This document shows, in pieces, positions 5,285 to 33,588 of a DNA stretch of 64,000 bases. The translations under genes were made by a program, and so were the position numbers. Source of the stretch: Methylotuvimicrobium buryatense 5G (GTDB taxonomy: Bacteria; Pseudomonadota; Gammaproteobacteria; Methylococcales; Methylomonadaceae). The stretch covers positions 1,332,619 through 1,396,618 of the forward strand of contig NZ_KB455575.1 in NCBI RefSeq assembly GCF_000341735.1. The letters run 5' to 3'. Each line of letters begins with the position of its first letter. The stretch's first letter is position 1. Below the pieces are notes generated by a model. It had not been told where the DNA came from. It did not search any database and was given only the letters and a program-made list of their open reading frames with translations.

Positions 5285-5402
5285 TCAATATCCAGGACAC
5301 ATGAATGTGAAGCTACGCATTGCCATCCTTGGCACTGGATTCCGCCAATCCCTGACGGAATGACGCGTTCTTTCCTTAAGTTGGCGCTTATCCCTTTATA
5401 CT
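5285..5402 (-). repeat. Family D dispersed element, partial (D1)
   Basis: On the minus strand it reads ATAAGCGCCAACTTAAG, then ACGCGTCATTCC, GGCGGAATCCAGTGCCA and GGATGGCAAT, matching D4 (52079-52255) and D2 (35919-36083). The far end is degenerate, so the boundary near 5285 is approximate. Confidence 0.65.
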
Positions 5403-5454
5403 GAAAATCGTTCAAGCTTATTGAAGGTACTTTGTAGGCTTGAAGCATCCCCGC

Positions 5455-5559
5455 AAAGTTGAATAATATTTCAGTAAGAAGGAGGCATAATCGGCTCAAT
5501 GCCTTCGAACTCGGCGGTTGGATGGTGCTTTTTGATCAACAGCCTAATTTCATCAATTT
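5455..5559 (-). pseudogene. Duplicated 3' fragment of the neighbouring DUF1269-like gene
   Basis: From the segment TTCAGTAAGAAGGAGGCA to CATCAATTT this stretch is almost base-for-base the 3' end of the gene at 8128-8631 (compare 8121-8218). The match extends leftward through GCAAAGTTGAATAAT, which corresponds to the sequence flanking element B1. No start or other coding parts are present, so it is a non-functional remnant ending abruptly at a partial family B copy. Confidence 0.8.
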
Positions 5560-5735
5560 ATGCTTCAGCTTGCTGAAGCCAATTGTCCGAGCAGTGGACA
5601 TTCGTAGCCACTTCTGCGGGACGGGTTATTTAACCCGTCCCCAACGTTTCGGTTTGCCCTAAACATTTCGGCTAACTTCGGCCAAAGTCAAAACGTTTAG
5701 GACGGGGTTGCAAACCCCGTCCTGCTAGGGCCTGG
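5560..5735 (+). repeat. Family B element, left-truncated copy (B0)
   Basis: It matches B1 and B2 from ATGCTTCAGCTTGCTGAAGC through the two hairpins GACGGGTTATTTAACCCGTC and GACGGGGTTGCAAACCCCGT to GCTAGGG, but lacks the terminal CCTGATTAGCAAG and the right end. The sequence from 5736 to 5850 holds another GGTTTGC/GCAAACC hairpin remnant and no gene. Confidence 0.75.
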
Positions 5736-6038
5736 GAAAGAGCGGGATGCGGGTTGGCCATTTTTAGCTTGATGCATATGGATTGCAAACCCCGTTCTGC
5801 CGAGGCGCGGGGTTTGCTTACCGTTATCGAAGAATCCACGCAAAGCTGAACCTGATTAGCAAGATGCTTCAGCTTGCTGAAGCCAATTGTCCGAGCAGTG
5901 GCCAGTCGTAGCCACTTCTGCGGGACGGGTTATTTAACCCGTCCCCAACGTTTCGGTTTGCCCTAAACATTTCGGCTAACTTCGGCCAAAGTCAAAACCT
6001 TTAGGACGGGGTTGCAAACCCCGCCCTGCTAGGGATAT

Positions 6039-8070
6039 GTGTGAGTCGCAGGTACCAACGGCTCAGTCTTAAACGGTGCGACCTATCGTGACAGGAACGT
6101 TGCGATGTGTCTAATCCTACCTGTGCGAATCCGTATTTGTACAGAAATGCTTGCTCGAACTCGTCTTAGACGGGGTACGCAGTTAGGGTCACTCAGGTAA
6201 CTGGTGGCGTTGAAGGAGCCAGGCAAGCATAGTCAGGGAGGTGGCAGGTTTTCAGCCTCGAATCAGGTGTCAGGGTCTATGTCCGCCTGAAACACTGGGG
6301 AGTTTTTTTTTCTTCTCTCACTGGGATTTATACGGTTATTCTCAGTGGCTATTAGGGGTGCTTGCTGTTGTCGCCCAGACATAATGGTTATTGGTACTGA
6401 CCGATGAAAGTCCTACGGCGTCTCTTGATTTTAACCCCTTCAAGAGTAATGCCCGCCTATAAGTTTATGGCGAAATGGCGGGTTTATGCGCTGGTGTGTG
6501 AGATTCCCCAAACTGAGCACTTTAAGGATGGCAGCGTCTTCGGTGTAGCCACGCAATTGCGCGGTGATAGAAGACTCCGTTGTTAGAAATACGTTGTCAT
6601 GGTTTTTCCATGAAGAAAGTTAGTCCGTCGGCTACGACCCCAAAATGGTCTGTCCTTCCTCTTTTGGAAAACCCGACGGTCGCTAAGAAACGCCTTCCAC
6701 GGCACGACCGTTGGCAAGGTATTGGTTAGTGTATGAGGGGTAAATCAGGTTGTCTTTATGTTAGTGAAACCGCTTAAGATTAAACATCATTCTTTAACAG
6801 GCAGAATAACCATCGAACGGGTGCGCAAGGCATTTCTTAATGTCAAACGTAACCGGGGCGCTGCCGGCGTTGATAAGCAAAGCATTGTGATGTTCGAGGC
6901 GAATCTTGAACAGAATTTGCAAGCATTGTTGAGCGATTTAAAAACGCGGGGGACATTTTCTCCGCATCCGCTCAAACGTGTGCGTATCGACAAAGGGAAT
7001 GGGAAATTTCGCCCGTTGGGCATTCCCGTGGTCCGTGACAGGATTGCGCAGGATGTCTTGCGGCAACTGCTGGAACCGTTGTTCGAGCCTTTGTTCCATC
7101 CAAACTCGTGTGGGTTTCGGCCAAATAGGAACTGTCATCAGGCCATTGAACGGGTGCTGGACATCTGGCGCGAGGGCAATCGCTATGTGCTGGATGCGGA
7201 TATATCGGGATTTTTCGATAACATCCCGCACCATGTCATCATGACGGGGCTATCCAATGTGGTCGCTGATGGGAATATTCTGGGTATTATTGAACGGTTT
7301 CTTAGGTCTGGCGTCATGGAAGACGGCGTTTTTAAACCAACGACGATCGGCACGCCGCAAGGCGGTGTCATTTCGCCTTTGTTGGCAAATATTGCGCTGA
7401 ACTATCTGGATTGGCATCTGCATGAGCATGGCTTGAACTTTGTGCGTTTATGCGGATGACTTTGTCGTTCTATGCCCATCCGAGGAACAGGCAAAAGAGG
7501 CATTGGTTCTTGTCGGGGCGTTTTTAAACACGCATCTTGAGTTGAAACTCTGCCCTGAGAAATCGCAGGTCACCACATTTAGTGAGGGTTTTGCATTCTG
7601 GGGTTTGATATTAGCTCAAGGGCGGTCACGATGCGCCCAAAGTCCATAGAGAAATTCAAAGATAAAATCCGGGAGTTGACCTGTCGCTCCTATAACTTGG
7701 ATAGTTACCGCATCATGCGGGTTAATCAGGTGATACGAGGGACGGCAAATTATTTTGCAACGCCGTTCTCTCATAATCGTTATCTGTTTACGGAATTGGA
7801 CAAGTGGATTCGAGTTCGCTTACGGTGCATGAAGTTTAACAGGAAATGGAAGACCGATAACAGGCGTCTACGTCTGAAGCACTTTAAGAATAAAGGGTTG
7901 TTGAGTCTCAGGGCGTTCTATCATGAACCTGCATAGCAAATACAATGACTCCCTTTCGAGGGCAATCTAGGCGGAGCCGCCCATTGTCTGAAAGAGACAC
8001 GATGGTAAATAGAGGGAATTAACCTTCTTGCGGCAACGGGGGGCTGGTGGTGATCCTCCAGCCTACCCAC
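6039..8070 (+). mobile_element. Group II intron (degenerate), about 2.03 kb
   Basis: It starts with GTGTGAG, the 5' consensus of group II introns, directly after GGGATAT of the host element. It ends near CCTACCCAC, before GCTGGTTTTTGGGCTTTAGC; B2 shows the same sequence uninterrupted (GGGATATGCTGGTTTTTGGG), which fixes both junctions to within a base. A GAAA-capped hairpin (7981-8005) preceded by AGC is a plausible domain V, and GGCTGG...CCAGCC (8042-8063) a plausible domain VI. Positions 6039-6757 are non-coding ribozyme sequence. It encodes a broken reverse transcriptase/maturase. Confidence 0.85.
6758..7936 (+). pseudogene. ltrA: Group II intron reverse transcriptase/maturase, two frameshifts
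   Basis: Three overlapping frames together give a normal protein of about 390 aa. Frame one has RT blocks (KGNGKFRPLGIPVVRDRIAQ, GFRPNRNCHQAI, VLDADISGFFDNI, GTPQGGVISPLLANIALN) and ends just before the catalytic motif. YADDFVVLC is in the next frame because of an extra T near 7449. A second shift near 7597 (one T apparently missing) moves into the frame of the maturase domain (RPKSIEKFKDKIRELT ... RGTANYF). There is no HNH endonuclease domain at the C-terminus. Both shifts are in short T runs, so sequencing error is an alternative to decay. Confidence 0.85.
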
Positions 8071-8127
8071 TGCTGGTTTTTGGGCTTTAGCTGAAGAAAC
8101 TTGCTAATCAGGAAGCTGAATGATTTT

Positions 8128-8631
8128 TCAGTAAGAAGGAGGCAAAATTGGCTCAATGCCTTCGAACTCGGCGGTTGGATGGTGCTTTTTGATCAACAGC
8201 CTAATTTCATCAATTTCATTTTTATTAATATCGACCAACACTAACAATTGCCCTGCTTCGATAGCTTGCTCGAATTGCCTCAAGCGAGAATTACCCGAAT
8301 TCATCCCCGAAAGCCCTCCCATTAAAGAGCCAATGGTCGCGCCGGCCAAAAGTACGCCCAATAAAGGACCACCGGCAATCGCAAAACCGGCAAACCGCAA
8401 TGCCACCAACCCCGCCAGCACGCCTGTCGAACCGCCCAGCGCCGCGCCTCGTTCGACTGCCGCAAGAAAATCCGTTTTTATTGTCACGCCCGCTTCCGGC
8501 AACCCCTCGAGCGGCGTATCGCGTTTAGCCAAAATATGAATATGGCGCTCCTCGATGCCTTCGGACATAAGTTCATCGACAATTTTATGCGTGGTAGCAA
8601 TATCCGGAACCAAAAAATAGATTCGTCTCAT
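8128..8631 (-). CDS. DUF1269-like small membrane protein
   Basis: 167 aa from ATG 8631, preceded by the ribosome binding site GGAGAAG; a longer frame upstream lacks one. The N-terminal ~60 residues look like an alpha/beta domain (RRIYFLVPDIATTHKIVDEL). A glycine/alanine-rich hydrophobic hairpin follows (GVLAGLVALRFAGFAIAGGP, GVLLAGATIGSLMGGLSG). The C-terminus is a ferredoxin-like piece ending in ILPPSY. Such proteins are annotated as DUF1269 or hypothetical stress-related membrane proteins. Its last ~90 bases are duplicated at 5468-5559. Function is unknown. Confidence 0.75.
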   Translation of the reverse strand: MRRIYFLVPDIATTHKIVDELMSEGIEERHIHILAKRDTPLEGLPEAGVTIKTDFLAAVERGAALGGSTGVLAGLVALRFAGFAIAGGPLLGVLLAGATIGSLMGGLSGMNSGNSRLRQFEQAIEAGQLLVLVDINKNEIDEIRLLIKKHHPTAEFEGIEPILPPSY

Positions 8632-8792
8632 GATCTTCTCCGCAAAATTAGCTGGATAACATCCCAATCGATATAAAAACTCCCTTCTTTTCATTGATAC
8701 TAATTAACAAGGCTCGGTTCAACAATTATTCAAAGTTGACAATAGCGACCGATTAAGAATTACGGCCTGCTCCTAACTTAAATCTTAATTCG

Positions 8793-8872
8793 CTTCCCCT
8801 TTCCCCTTTCCCCTTTCCCCTTTCCCCTTTCCCCTTTCATCTTTCACCTTTCATCTTTCACCTTTCATCTCA
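8793..8872. repeat. Heptamer microsatellite (CCCTTTC / ACCTTTC)
   Basis: About eleven tandem 7-bp units, first CCCTTTC then mixed CATCTTT/CACCTTT, lie immediately downstream of the stop codon of the CPA1 antiporter gene (stop at 8874-8876, minus strand). The same heptamer type occurs at 59582-59652. Confidence 0.85.
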
Positions 8873-8873
8873 C

Positions 8874-10961
8874 CTATTTCCTCCCATCCCGTAATTCATT
8901 AAACAGCATGATGTAAAGCTTCGTGCTAATTATCTCGTTTTTACTCAACTTGGCCAGCGTCTCCATTTGCTGGGCGTCGAGCGTTTTTTGCCCGCTAATC
9001 GAATTGAAATCCGTCAACAATTCGTAATTCGACTCAATCATCTTATCGAGGTTTTGCTTTGTATTCGCAGCCAAGGCTTTGTATAGATCGATAGTTCGAC
9101 ACAATGCATCGGCGTCGTCGAAAATCTCGCCTAGACTGGTATTTTGTAAACCCTCCAACCTCCCGACCACCGTTTCGAGCATTTGATATTGAGTCCGGTA
9201 ATAAATATAAAGCTCTTGAGGCTGCAAATTCTGCGACGACAAAAATAACAATCTTCGCACGCCATTGATCAGATGCTCTATTCCGTCCACCGGAAACTTC
9301 TCGTCCAATTTATTTAACTGAGAATGCCCTTTTTCGATACGGGCCATTTGAATATCCAGCAAATTGAGAATTTTTTTATAAACTTTCTCATTAATGTCAC
9401 CGCGATGATAGATTTCTTTCAATTCGCTCTTTTCCATGCCCAACACAAAAATACGCAGTAACTTCTCAGTCAATTCCGCAGCATTCGGAAACTTGCCTTT
9501 ATATTCGCTCAAAGCCTTGTCATGTAACCGCTGATAACTGTCGCGCATCGTCCGGTATTGTTCCTCGCTGATTTTTCTATCTTGAAACAAACGTTCCAGA
9601 GAGCTCAAGACTTCATCATATATCAATGCCTTACCTTTGTAATAACTGACTTCTTCATAATCCGTCAAAGCGTCGATACCGAGCGCGTGCATCACTTTAC
9701 CGATCGTGGTCGCCTTGACCAACAAGGTAAAATAAATACAACCGATCGTGATTGCGGTAACGAAATCCTTAACCGAAAAGTCATAAGTCCAACCCGGCAA
9801 GGTCGCATCGTCAGGAATCAATAAGACCATGATGACCGCTAACGACCCTCTTAAACTACCCCAGGACAACAAATGCATCCAGGAAACGGGAATCGGCTCT
9901 TCCTTCCGAGTCAGATTCAACAAACCCAGCAACGGATAAATCGACAACGCGCGCCCCAGCATCACGACAACAATCGCCAGTAATATAGGCAGAATAGCAA
10001 CATGCAAATCGATCGATTGTTTGACGAACAATAAACCCATTAATATGAAAACCAGAGAATTCGTTACGAACCCGAAATAACTCCAAAACTTTTCCATGTA
10101 TTCTTCGACGCCGTGCGACATTTTGAATCGGCCGAAATTACCGATCACCATCGACGCGACCAAGGTTGCGATAATCGATGAGAAGCGAAGCTGCTGACCG
10201 AATAACACAATATGCTCGGAGATCACCTCGGTCAAAATGAACGTAAAATGCGCAACCAGCAACGTCAGCGTAATTTCTAAATGCTCATGACCTTTGACCC
10301 ATTCGATCAGTTTCGCGAATACAAAACCCATTAACAAGCCGAACAAAATTCCGCCGAACAGCATGATAAAAAAATTCAAAAAACCGTTCGCAATCGAAGT
10401 CGATCCGGCAAAACCATGCAGTAAAATTTCAAGAAAAACCAAAAAAATAGCGAACGCGGTACCGTCGTTAAACAAGCTTTCGCCTTCGAAAATCAACGTG
10501 AGCCTTTTCGGCGCTCCGTAATCTTTGAATAAAGACAATACGGCGACCGGATCGGTCGAAGATATGATCGCGCCGAATAACAAGGTCACGATAATCGGCA
10601 CTTCAAAGCCAATCCATCTGAACACATAAAAACCGGCGATACCGATAAAAAAAGTCGACACCAACATGCCCGGTATCGCCAGCAAACTGATCGCCCGGAT
10701 ATTGTTAATCATGTCGCCGATTTTGATGTTATAAGCCGATTCGAAAATCAAAATCGGTAAAAATACGAAAAACAACAACTCGGGCGTCAGCTCGAAACTA
10801 TTGATAAACGCGAAGGCTTCGACCCGCGACAAGGGCACCAATAACGAACCGACGATCACCAACAGCACGGTATAAGGGATGCGGGCCTTTTGCGCCGCCA
10901 TGTATACACCCAACGAAATTAGCATCAAGCTAAACAACGCTAAAAATACTTCAAGATTCAT
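8874..10961 (-). CDS. Na+/H+ (cation/proton) antiporter, CPA1 family
   Basis: 695 aa. The N-terminal ~430 residues form about 12 membrane helices with CPA1 landmarks: FLPILIFESAYNI, FGAIISSTDPVAVLSLFKD (the conserved Asp pair region) and EGESLFNDGTAFAIF, which carries the ND ion-binding residues. The last ~260 residues are hydrophilic and helical, comparable to the regulatory cytoplasmic tail of NhaP/NHE-type exchangers. It would exchange Na+ or K+ for H+ across the inner membrane. It is divergent from the membrane protein at 11315. The stop codon abuts a heptamer repeat. Confidence 0.9.
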   Translation of the reverse strand: MNLEVFLALFSLMLISLGVYMAAQKARIPYTVLLVIVGSLLVPLSRVEAFAFINSFELTPELLFFVFLPILIFESAYNIKIGDMINNIRAISLLAIPGMLVSTFFIGIAGFYVFRWIGFEVPIIVTLLFGAIISSTDPVAVLSLFKDYGAPKRLTLIFEGESLFNDGTAFAIFLVFLEILLHGFAGSTSIANGFLNFFIMLFGGILFGLLMGFVFAKLIEWVKGHEHLEITLTLLVAHFTFILTEVISEHIVLFGQQLRFSSIIATLVASMVIGNFGRFKMSHGVEEYMEKFWSYFGFVTNSLVFILMGLLFVKQSIDLHVAILPILLAIVVVMLGRALSIYPLLGLLNLTRKEEPIPVSWMHLLSWGSLRGSLAVIMVLLIPDDATLPGWTYDFSVKDFVTAITIGCIYFTLLVKATTIGKVMHALGIDALTDYEEVSYYKGKALIYDEVLSSLERLFQDRKISEEQYRTMRDSYQRLHDKALSEYKGKFPNAAELTEKLLRIFVLGMEKSELKEIYHRGDINEKVYKKILNLLDIQMARIEKGHSQLNKLDEKFPVDGIEHLINGVRRLLFLSSQNLQPQELYIYYRTQYQMLETVVGRLEGLQNTSLGEIFDDADALCRTIDLYKALAANTKQNLDKMIESNYELLTDFNSISGQKTLDAQQMETLAKLSKNEIISTKLYIMLFNELRDGRK

Positions 10962-19670: not shown

Positions 19671-19780
<110 letters not shown>

Positions 19781-22222: not shown

Positions 22223-22285
22223 ACGATCATGAAGTCGGAAGTTTCACCTCTGATCAAGAAAATAGTCGTTCAGGGCATATTATTT

Positions 22286-22329
22286 CCTGATTAGCAAGAT
22301 GCTTTAGCTGAAGAAACTTATTAATTAGG
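22286..22329 (+). repeat. Minimal family B element (B3), 44 bp
   Basis: It consists of little more than the two ends: CCTGATTAGCAAGATGCTTT and GAAACTTATTAATTAGG. It is flanked on both sides by the direct repeat TATTATTT (22278-22285 and 22330-22337). The 8-bp duplication matches the length seen for B1 and B2. Confidence 0.85.
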
Positions 22330-33172: not shown

Positions 33173-33588
33173 TATAACTTTCGCACTTCAAATTTCGGCA
33201 TTAGCCAACCTGATTAGCAAGATACCTCAGCTTGCCGAAGCCAAGTGTCCGAGCAGGGGCCAGTCGTAGTCGAAAAAACTAAAATATGCCTTCTGCGGGA
33301 CGGGTTATTTAACCCGTCCCCAACGTTTCGGTTTGCCCTAAACATTTCGGCTGACTTCGGCCAAAGTCAAAACGTTTAGGACGGGGTTGCAAACCCCGTC
33401 TTGCTAGGGATATGCTGGTTTTTGGGCTTTAGCTGAAGAAACTTGCTAATCAGGTTAGCCAATGGAGGTGCCGGGGTGTTCGGCAAAGGCTTTGATAGCA
33501 TGGATGCTATCATAGAGCCTACATGGACGTATTTACGGCGTCCTTTGACGGGCACCCCGGCACCGAAATTTGACAAGCAAAGGGTATA
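33173..33588 (+). repeat. Family A element (A5) carrying a family B insertion
   Basis: Begins TATAACTTTCGCACTTC and ends GACAAGCAAAGGGTATA. It contains the core ACATGGACGTATTTACGGCG. Element B2 (33209-33454) sits after TTCGGCATTAGCCAA with a duplicated TTAGCCAA. Confidence 0.85.
33209..33454 (+). mobile_element. Family B MITE-like element (B2), 246 bp
   Basis: Ends are CCTGATTAGCAAG and CTTGCTAATCAGG, flanked by the 8-bp direct repeat TTAGCCAA (33201-33208, 33455-33462). It contains the hairpins GACGGGTTATTTAACCCGTC and GACGGGGTTGCAAACCCCGT, and the uninterrupted target GGGATATGCTGGTTTTTGGG of the group II intron found in B1. Confidence 0.88.

Follow-up and report, generated by a model that had tools for sequence, protein, structure and literature searches.

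A group II intron with an apparent hairpin insertion in domain V, lodged in a MITE-like element of Methylotuvimicrobium buryatense 5G

The intron, its host element and its reverse transcriptase

A stretch of 64,000 nucleotides of Methylotuvimicrobium buryatense 5G (contig NZ_KB455575.1, positions 1,332,619 to 1,396,618, forward strand; hereafter the window) contains a 2033-base group II intron at 6039-8071 (5' GTGTGAG, 3' CCCACT), which interrupts B1 (5851-8112), a copy of the miniature inverted-repeat transposable element (MITE)-like repeat B. The intron carries a gene for a reverse transcriptase (RT)/maturase, and its domain V (DV), otherwise standard in its parts, is broken by a second hairpin. 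In all likelihood the element represents a separate family of retromobile group II introns, with an RT that places it near class C and an extra hairpin in DV. The features of the locus are collected in Table 1.

Table 1. Features of the intron locus and of the related B copies, in window coordinates
Feature	Position	Strand	Remark
Paralogous junction and gene 3' end without B1 ("empty" copy)	5456-5559		Arranged as in sister genome G002
B0, B (MITE) copy truncated 5' and 3'	5560-5730	+	97.7% identity to B1 over 171 bases
B1 MITE 5' part (5' exon side)	5851-6038	+	Target duplication AAGCTGAA at 5843-5850
Group II intron	6039-8071	+	2033 bases; empty site in B2, copies L009 and L013
Ribozyme 5' part: D1, D2, D3, base of D4	6039-6757	+	Assigned by predicted consensus fold
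RT/maturase gene (RVT_1 + GIIM)	6758-7936	+	Frame broken here; open over 392 aa in L009 and L013
Domain V with inserted hairpin	7976-8034	+	Fold and covariation
Triad strand GCCGC	7976-7980	+	Catalytic triad CGC at 7978-7980
DV lower helix	7981-7985/8001-8005	+	
DV upper helix	7986-7989/7995-7998	+	Loop GAAAG
DV bulge AC	7999-8000	+	
DV insertion, 24 nt	8006-8029	+	TAAAT, 6-bp hairpin (8011-8016/8023-8028), T
Triad partner strand GCGGC	8030-8034	+	
Domain VI	8038-8068	+	Bulged A8065, seventh base from intron 3' end
B1 MITE 3' part (3' exon side)	8072-8112	+	Followed by target duplication AAGCTGAA at 8113-8120
Host gene, 3' end duplicated at 5456-5559	8128-8694	-	Weak YflT-domain match below cut-off (8128-8640 tested)
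B2 MITE with empty intron target at 33413/33414	33209-33454	+	

B is MITE-like because exact 8-bp duplications flank most of the fetched copies (22 of the 28 loci with both ends recognised, 30 loci having been fetched), with AAGCTGAA on either side of B1 and TTAGCCAA on either side of B2. In these duplications and in its length of mostly 229 bp it resembles known MITEs that duplicate 8 bp of target. Its terminal inverted repeats read CCTGATTAGCAAG.., and at least 43 matches were found in the genome (40 of 207 candidates scored). The junctions of the intron-bearing B1 read GGGATAT/GTGTGAG...CCCACT/GCTGG, and removal of the intron gives GGGATAT/GCTGG, identical to the uninterrupted target in B2 (GGGATATGCTGG) that the earlier note had pointed out. 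Genome-wide, the empty target occurred 27 times exactly, 46 times with up to one mismatch and 59 times with up to two (reversed control pattern, 0); one variant was common to 11 of the 13 two-mismatch places, at least one of which lies within a listed B copy.

The genome holds three near-identical full copies of the intron: that of the window, L009 at the corresponding site of a different B, and L013, which has no B around it; they differed by 0-1 substitutions in about 2030 bases and lay at different sites. The proposal that a group II intron sits within a MITE was thereby borne out by the reading of the insertion, by the copies and by the target duplications of B. Two further fragments were seen: in a third B copy (L019, G000:C1:3994181) nothing but the initial 48 nt of the intron occupies the corresponding site, and L016 (G000:C1:1968914) is an intron 5'-truncated and internally deleted.

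The RVT_1 and GIIM domains were matched in the window RT, and the intact RT of L013 matched the NCBIfam group II RT/maturase family TIGR04416 with 374.5 bits against a cut-off of 300. The closest solved chain was 7uim, a group II RT/maturase, which belongs to an E. rectale-type class C intron. No endonuclease domain was found in the intron RT/maturase. PADLOC matches were set aside as general RT similarity only. RT stretches were free of stops in nine of the ten hairpin-DV loci checked (among them L084, whose DV lies off its contig), with one stop in L140.

Upstream of the RT gene, a consensus fold of L013 and four relatives gave four closed domains; 93 of the 179 pairs persist through a two-sided change in one sequence or more, and in this model the domains are as expected for D1-D4. 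Downstream, the domain VI (DVI) helix covaried and retained its bulged A, which in group II introns lies 7-8 nt from the 3' end. Group II introns usually start with GUGYG and end with AY. The 5' start GUGUG was read in the window, L013, L084, L087 and L140, and a GCGUG variant in L082, L083, L132, L136 and L150. Folding of domains I-VI, proposed in the earlier note, yielded a predicted D1, D2, D3 and base of D4, together with DVI and a DV that is non-canonical.

No Rfam group II model matched in the window by cmscan at the gathering threshold, nor in 5400-8250 at E ≤ 10. At the gathering threshold, Rfam group II models (DV or D1-D4) matched all 22 relatives with a canonical DV (two sets, 12/12 and 10/10) versus 0 of 13 hairpin-DV loci (L009, L013, L006, L131, L132, L134, L136, L140, L142, L150, L082, L083 and L085); L052 was likewise without a match, and its contig ends before DV. 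The RTs of these canonical controls are about 35-43% identical to that of the window (L144, 30% over part), and the rows labelled canonical outside this test were L072-L076, L078-L080 and L088-L092. The DV model RF00029 accounted for 15 of the 22 canonical relatives (10/12 and 5/10 in the two sets). RF02001, the D1-D4 model commonest among the relatives, matched 13 of the 22 and none of the 13 hairpin-DV loci, its standing for class C being an assumption.

Domain V and the inserted hairpin

DV, which corresponds to the spliceosome core, is conserved more strongly than any other part of group II introns and is regarded as almost intolerant of change. The DV of the window has the CGC triad, the AC bulge and a GAAA-type cap. 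Folding of 7937-8069 alone gave a DV-like hairpin, a second hairpin in its 3' strand and DVI with its bulged A (z -2.67; 3 of 200 shuffles folded at least as well). Compared with the canonical DVs of relatives, the insert follows the fifth base of the 3' strand of the lower helix and precedes the base that pairs with the last triad nucleotide. In this fold DV therefore takes the form of a three-way junction instead of one hairpin, because the inserted hairpin stands between the lower helix and the triad-pairing bases. Outside the insert the match is base for base, as between the canonical L066 (GAGC-CGUGU-GCGG-GAAAA-CCGC-AC-GCACG-GUUC) and L085 (UCGC-CCGGU-GCGG-GAAAG-CCGC-AC-GCCGG-[24 nt]-GCGA). 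The same hairpin-DV form, in different letters, was present in L081, L082, L083 and L085, the four loci of the GTDB contig scan (below) with the 3' end on the contig.

Covariation supports the insertion. In a free MAFFT alignment of eight sequences 98.8% of cells were paired and 13 of 32 pairs had two-sided changes; 0 of 500 shuffles reached the paired share, the two-sided pairs or the covariation score, and slid partners gave 47-53%. Among 17 distinct sequences found with the covariance model, in an alignment fitted to that model, 97.2% of cells over 32 pairs were paired and 14 pairs had two-sided changes, a number reached by 1 of 500 shuffles, with the covariation score reached by none of 500. 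The inserted helix of subfamily 1 by itself was 98.0% paired, its covariation score was reached by 0 of 500 shuffles and three of its six pairs showed two-sided change. The counts exclude L014 (without one DV strand), the near-identical L010 and L161-L163; L006, L119 and L127 in A5, partly degenerate, were retained.

Two forms of the insert were read. In subfamily 1 it measures 24 nt (23-25) and consists of TAAAT, a 6-bp stem, mostly an AAUURA loop and 1-2 nt, and in subfamily 2 it measures 33-37 nt, its stem having 10 or 11 pairs. The subfamily 2 hairpin, in six distinct sequences, was 95.0% paired with two-sided changes in 3 of 10 pairs. All 14 canonical relatives displayed, among 15 with an Rfam DV match, have a continuous DV, and the insertion was thus rejected as a general feature of the relatives. 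Further insert types suspected in L060, L065, L066 and L067 by an over-strict home-made DV scanner turned out to be ordinary DVs by Rfam coordinates and folding, and the scanner, which called a canonical DV in just 3 of 35 loci, was dropped.

Twenty-two genomes from at least four phyla yielded the hairpin-DV form, which falls into two subfamilies, defined by their RTs and each with its own hairpin. One scan of GTDB contigs, run with an RT alignment, gave eight loci, including full or long relatives at 59-89% identity, with hosts among metagenome-assembled genomes (MAGs) of Methylococcaceae, Planctomycetota, Desulfobacterales and Chloroflexota. With the covariance model R1, 7 of 369 genomes of the class were matched (E 0.01), with hairpin forms only in G000 and G565 and one match unclear, and 6 of 7 genomes of RT relatives were matched. 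The same model matched 3 of 297 genomes of one phylum and 3 of 301 of another, the hairpin in each being only that of the seed. Matches were obtained in 10 of 294 genomes from the phylum of the Planctomycetota MAG, nine with the hairpin by alignment (seed included), and in 12 of 62 from the planctomycetotal order of G1258, where the hairpin was read in 8 of the 12. R1 matches without a hairpin (L096-L098, L100 and L113-L116) were left uncounted, as were L099 (unclear), L104 (a truncated copy) and L125 and L129 (truncated or unclear).

The second subfamily is formed by several multi-copy members from Planctomycetota, with up to eight matches per genome and RTs about 44-45% identical to that of the window. 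In the RT tree, calculated without a reference set of named classes, the hairpin-DV RTs stood on separate branches and both subfamilies were solid (support 100/99 and 100/100). A single origin of the hairpin-DV is likely on these sequences. DNA pattern scans of viral contigs for the DV insert gave 0, and RT relatives there were only 25-39% identical; for plasmids and phages, RT relatives reached about 40% identity or less among the matches listed. At L132:3200-3245, an Acido-Lenti-1 RNA (RF01687, 58.7 bits) was seen 46 bases downstream of the 3' end of the hairpin-DV intron. The Acido-Lenti-1 motif has been reported near group II introns; a literature search on both terms found nothing.

Mobility, splicing and the order of events

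The hairpin-DV elements are precisely inserted and recently mobile in multiple copies. Besides the three copies of the window genome, G1258 holds five with identical ends and different flanks, which show 6-9 substitutions relative to L140 in about 2030 bases, and similarity fell sharply at the intron start in both pairs compared (L140/L149 and L136/L150). A stem-loop was recognised by eye upstream of six subfamily 1 sites (B, L011, L082, L083, L084 and L087) and was not seen upstream of L002 and L017 or in subfamily 2 flanks. L136 (G1387:C1:1646600-1650400, reverse strand) lies inside the RT gene of a copy of the same family, a nested, twintron-like arrangement.

In subfamily 2, exact joining of the exons gave an open sense frame across three of seven junctions, which points to splicing of the hairpin-DV introns. 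In L148 the joined exons encode a DNA polymerase IV, and the whole IMS domain (profile 1-148 of 148) is matched through the joint at residue 119; those of L150 encode a transposase open over 497 residues, with two Pfam matches flanking the joint; and those of L149 encode a short nucleotidyltransferase in which the Polbeta match (39-116 of 122) spans the joint at residue 93.

We therefore consider it highly probable, with splicing inferred from sequence, that these elements form an active group II intron family with a three-way-junction DV. In the proposed course of events, the intron RNA would fold with its own RT/maturase, and the CGC triad, the AC bulge and the lower helix would assemble in the manner of an ordinary DV, since the inserted hairpin would find room outside the triad pairs. 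The hairpin would project from the triad-partner strand and may dock on the maturase or on D1. Splicing would yield a lariat through the bulged A of DVI (seventh from the 3' end), and the intron ribonucleoprotein would then reverse-splice into DNA, mostly at sites immediately 3' of a stem-loop in the case of subfamily 1. The abundant MITE B would offer dozens of such targets, its GACGGGG...CCCCGTC stem ending 12 bases upstream of the site.

Several observations weigh against this interpretation. Relative to the two open copies, single-base differences disrupt the RT frame of the window copy, and this may be decay or an assembly error; ambiguous bases are present in the other copies. The D1 assignment comes from a modelled fold of five sequences, and the Rfam D1-D4 models gave no match. 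The 3' end is CU, not AY, in the window and in most aligned members (exceptions L102, AU; L124, UU; L161, GU); a joint one base leftward is possible in B and in several genes and would give an AC or GC end, and the reading frame of L150 is open only with the intron end at CU. The number of two-sided pairs in the inserted helix was reached by 118 of 500 shuffles in subfamily 1 and by 11 of 500 in subfamily 2, and pair-type numbers failed to beat the shuffles (142 of 500 for 8 sequences, 138 for 17, 339 for the inserted helix and 240 for subfamily 2). L006 and L124 carry a degenerate insert or DV. The joint branch of the two subfamilies has a support of 64/65, and two separate insertions may have occurred. 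Among the joined exons, L149 is the weakest of the three, as a one-base control shift also leaves an open and longer frame, and the junctions of L136, L140, L146 and L147 gave no continuous sense frame, the shifted control of L136 being open.

These last four junctions, together with the frequent position of subfamily 1 copies with read flanks behind stem-loops, where selection for splicing is not obvious, would suit an element that spreads by retrotransposition only and no longer splices, its RNA serving as a target-recognition device and not as a ribozyme. We hold this to be unlikely, given that DVI retains its bulged A and covaries and that three of the seven sister-subfamily copies lie in sense within genes whose joined frame is open, including the catalytic core of DNA polymerase IV. 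It is rather improbable, too, that the triad strand is left unpaired by the strand beyond the extra hairpin and finds its partner in another domain or in trans, so that DV stays open. This arrangement would agree with compensation in only one of the five lower pairs (UA 8, CG 7), with three triad pairs that hardly vary and are hence uninformative, and with the missing first pair above the triad in subfamily 2, but the lower helix is paired in 96.5% of cells and the same helix results from folding the window alone.

That an ordinary group II intron has a DV decayed or hit by a small insertion, the odd 3' end being pseudogene noise, could draw on the frameshifted window RT and on the intron fragments in related genomes; it is very improbable and was rejected on conservation and covariation, since the same insertion stands at the same position with compensatory changes throughout the 22 genomes, RT stretches are mostly stop-free and the insertion also occurs in multi-copy genomes. 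A composite transposition, with the intron spreading as cargo of B, would explain why the same site of B holds two of the three full copies. It is scarcely credible and was discarded on the contrast in divergence: B1 and the B of L009, the two intron hosts, show 5 differences in 229 bases, and the introns within them none in 2030 compared bases, plus four gap positions (Fisher p = 1e-5 on substitutions). The remaining full copy is, moreover, not in B, nor are the other-genome copies with read flanks.

The same contrast implies two independent entries of the intron, into B copies that had diverged beforehand. The earlier note had also described a diverged copy of the B1 junction without B1, which was confirmed at 5456-5559 with 5 differences in 104 positions to 8113-8216, all within the first part of the repeat. 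B0 follows directly after this duplicated gene end and had been overlooked; truncated and lying between the junction copies, it complicates the order of events. The comparison with sister strains suggested earlier did yield an empty site: G002, a sister genome, has the junction GCAAAGTTGAATAATATTTCAG without interruption, running straight on into the gene and with letters as in the 5456 copy. The 47 bases upstream of B1 (5804-5850) resemble the G003 allele at 89% identity. Taken together, the G002 junction letters, the G003-like sequence upstream and the position of the five differences suggest that the B1-bearing copy may be an imported allele and not a local duplicate. In the order of duplication, B1 and intron proposed before, the entry of the intron after B1 was supported; duplication as the first step was not established, and import of a second, B1-carrying allele possibly fits as well or better.

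Other observations were made around the locus. In the sister genome, an element of about 2.5 kb has inserted into the intron L002/L010 (G003:C1:3374378-3378900) and divides it, with an overlap of 5 bases. In the window, a short palindromic pair of B terminal repeats at 22284-22329 is perhaps a remnant B copy, a small bacterial signal recognition particle RNA gene lies at 19676-19772 on the reverse strand, and a run of CCCCTTT- and TTTCACC-type short repeats occupies about 8797-8875, between the 5' end of the 8128-8694 gene and the next gene.

Comparison with known introns and the spliceosomal core

The hairpin-DV family shares with group IIC introns (bacterial class C) an RT without an endonuclease domain whose best solved match is 7uim, the CGC triad, found also in some canonical-DV relatives (L061, L063 and L113 = L143), and insertion just 3' of stem-loops at the six sites named above. 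Class C introns insert 3' of terminator-like stem-loops, according to excerpts of PMC4424553. The family differs from group IIC in the insert of 23-25 or 33-37 nt within DV, in the lack of Rfam matches, in RTs on their own branches and in the intron end CU.

Extra structured elements have been described in other introns. Class B introns with a domain VII 3' extension likewise have one near the 3' end of a mobile bacterial intron (excerpts of PMC4424553), with the difference that it is added after DVI and shifts the 3' splice site, whereas the addition in the window family lies inside DV. Ulva mitochondrial introns with DIIIa also carry a lineage-specific added stem-loop, which is inserted between DIII and DIV, and the length and sequence of their DV stay highly conserved (excerpts of PMC13026550). 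The excerpts of PMC4424553, PMC8919778 and PMC13026550 deal with extra elements elsewhere or with DV-based detection, not with a hairpin within DV. In the open-licence PMC literature, without the 2008 survey of intron varieties, no description of a hairpin inserted in DV was found; a prior description is possible, and the family is apparently undescribed so far.

Owing to the conservation of DV, some intron surveys rest on it as a detector; one called introns only with an Rfam DV match (above 24 bits) near an RT or D1-D4, in the excerpted methods of PMC8919778. The hairpin-DV family, with an RT recognised as group II and an RNA unmatched by Rfam, is an example of what such detection misses.

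In the spliceosome, the U6 hairpin directly follows the triad. The U2/U6 small nuclear RNA (snRNA) core has the triad and the bulge as in the window DV, and the counterpart of DV is formed there by pairing of U2 with U6, two molecules (excerpts of PMC4424553). The DV strand of the window is, in contrast, continuous in cis and interrupted by the hairpin at the presumed matching place, so that by analogy the inserted hairpin would sit where the U2 strand enters. The insertion, natural, backed by covariation and adjoining the catalytic triad at the presumed position of the U2/U6 break, makes the need for DV strand continuity in catalysis directly testable. The chances appear evenly balanced that we are dealing with a phylum-crossing lineage of active group II introns whose DV is a natural three-way junction split at the equivalent of the U6/U2 strand break. 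If so, the triad-pairing strand need not be continuous with the U6-like hairpin, the inserted hairpin would offer the maturase or some other factor a place to dock, and the lineage would provide a living model for a one-piece ribozyme core coming apart into two snRNAs.

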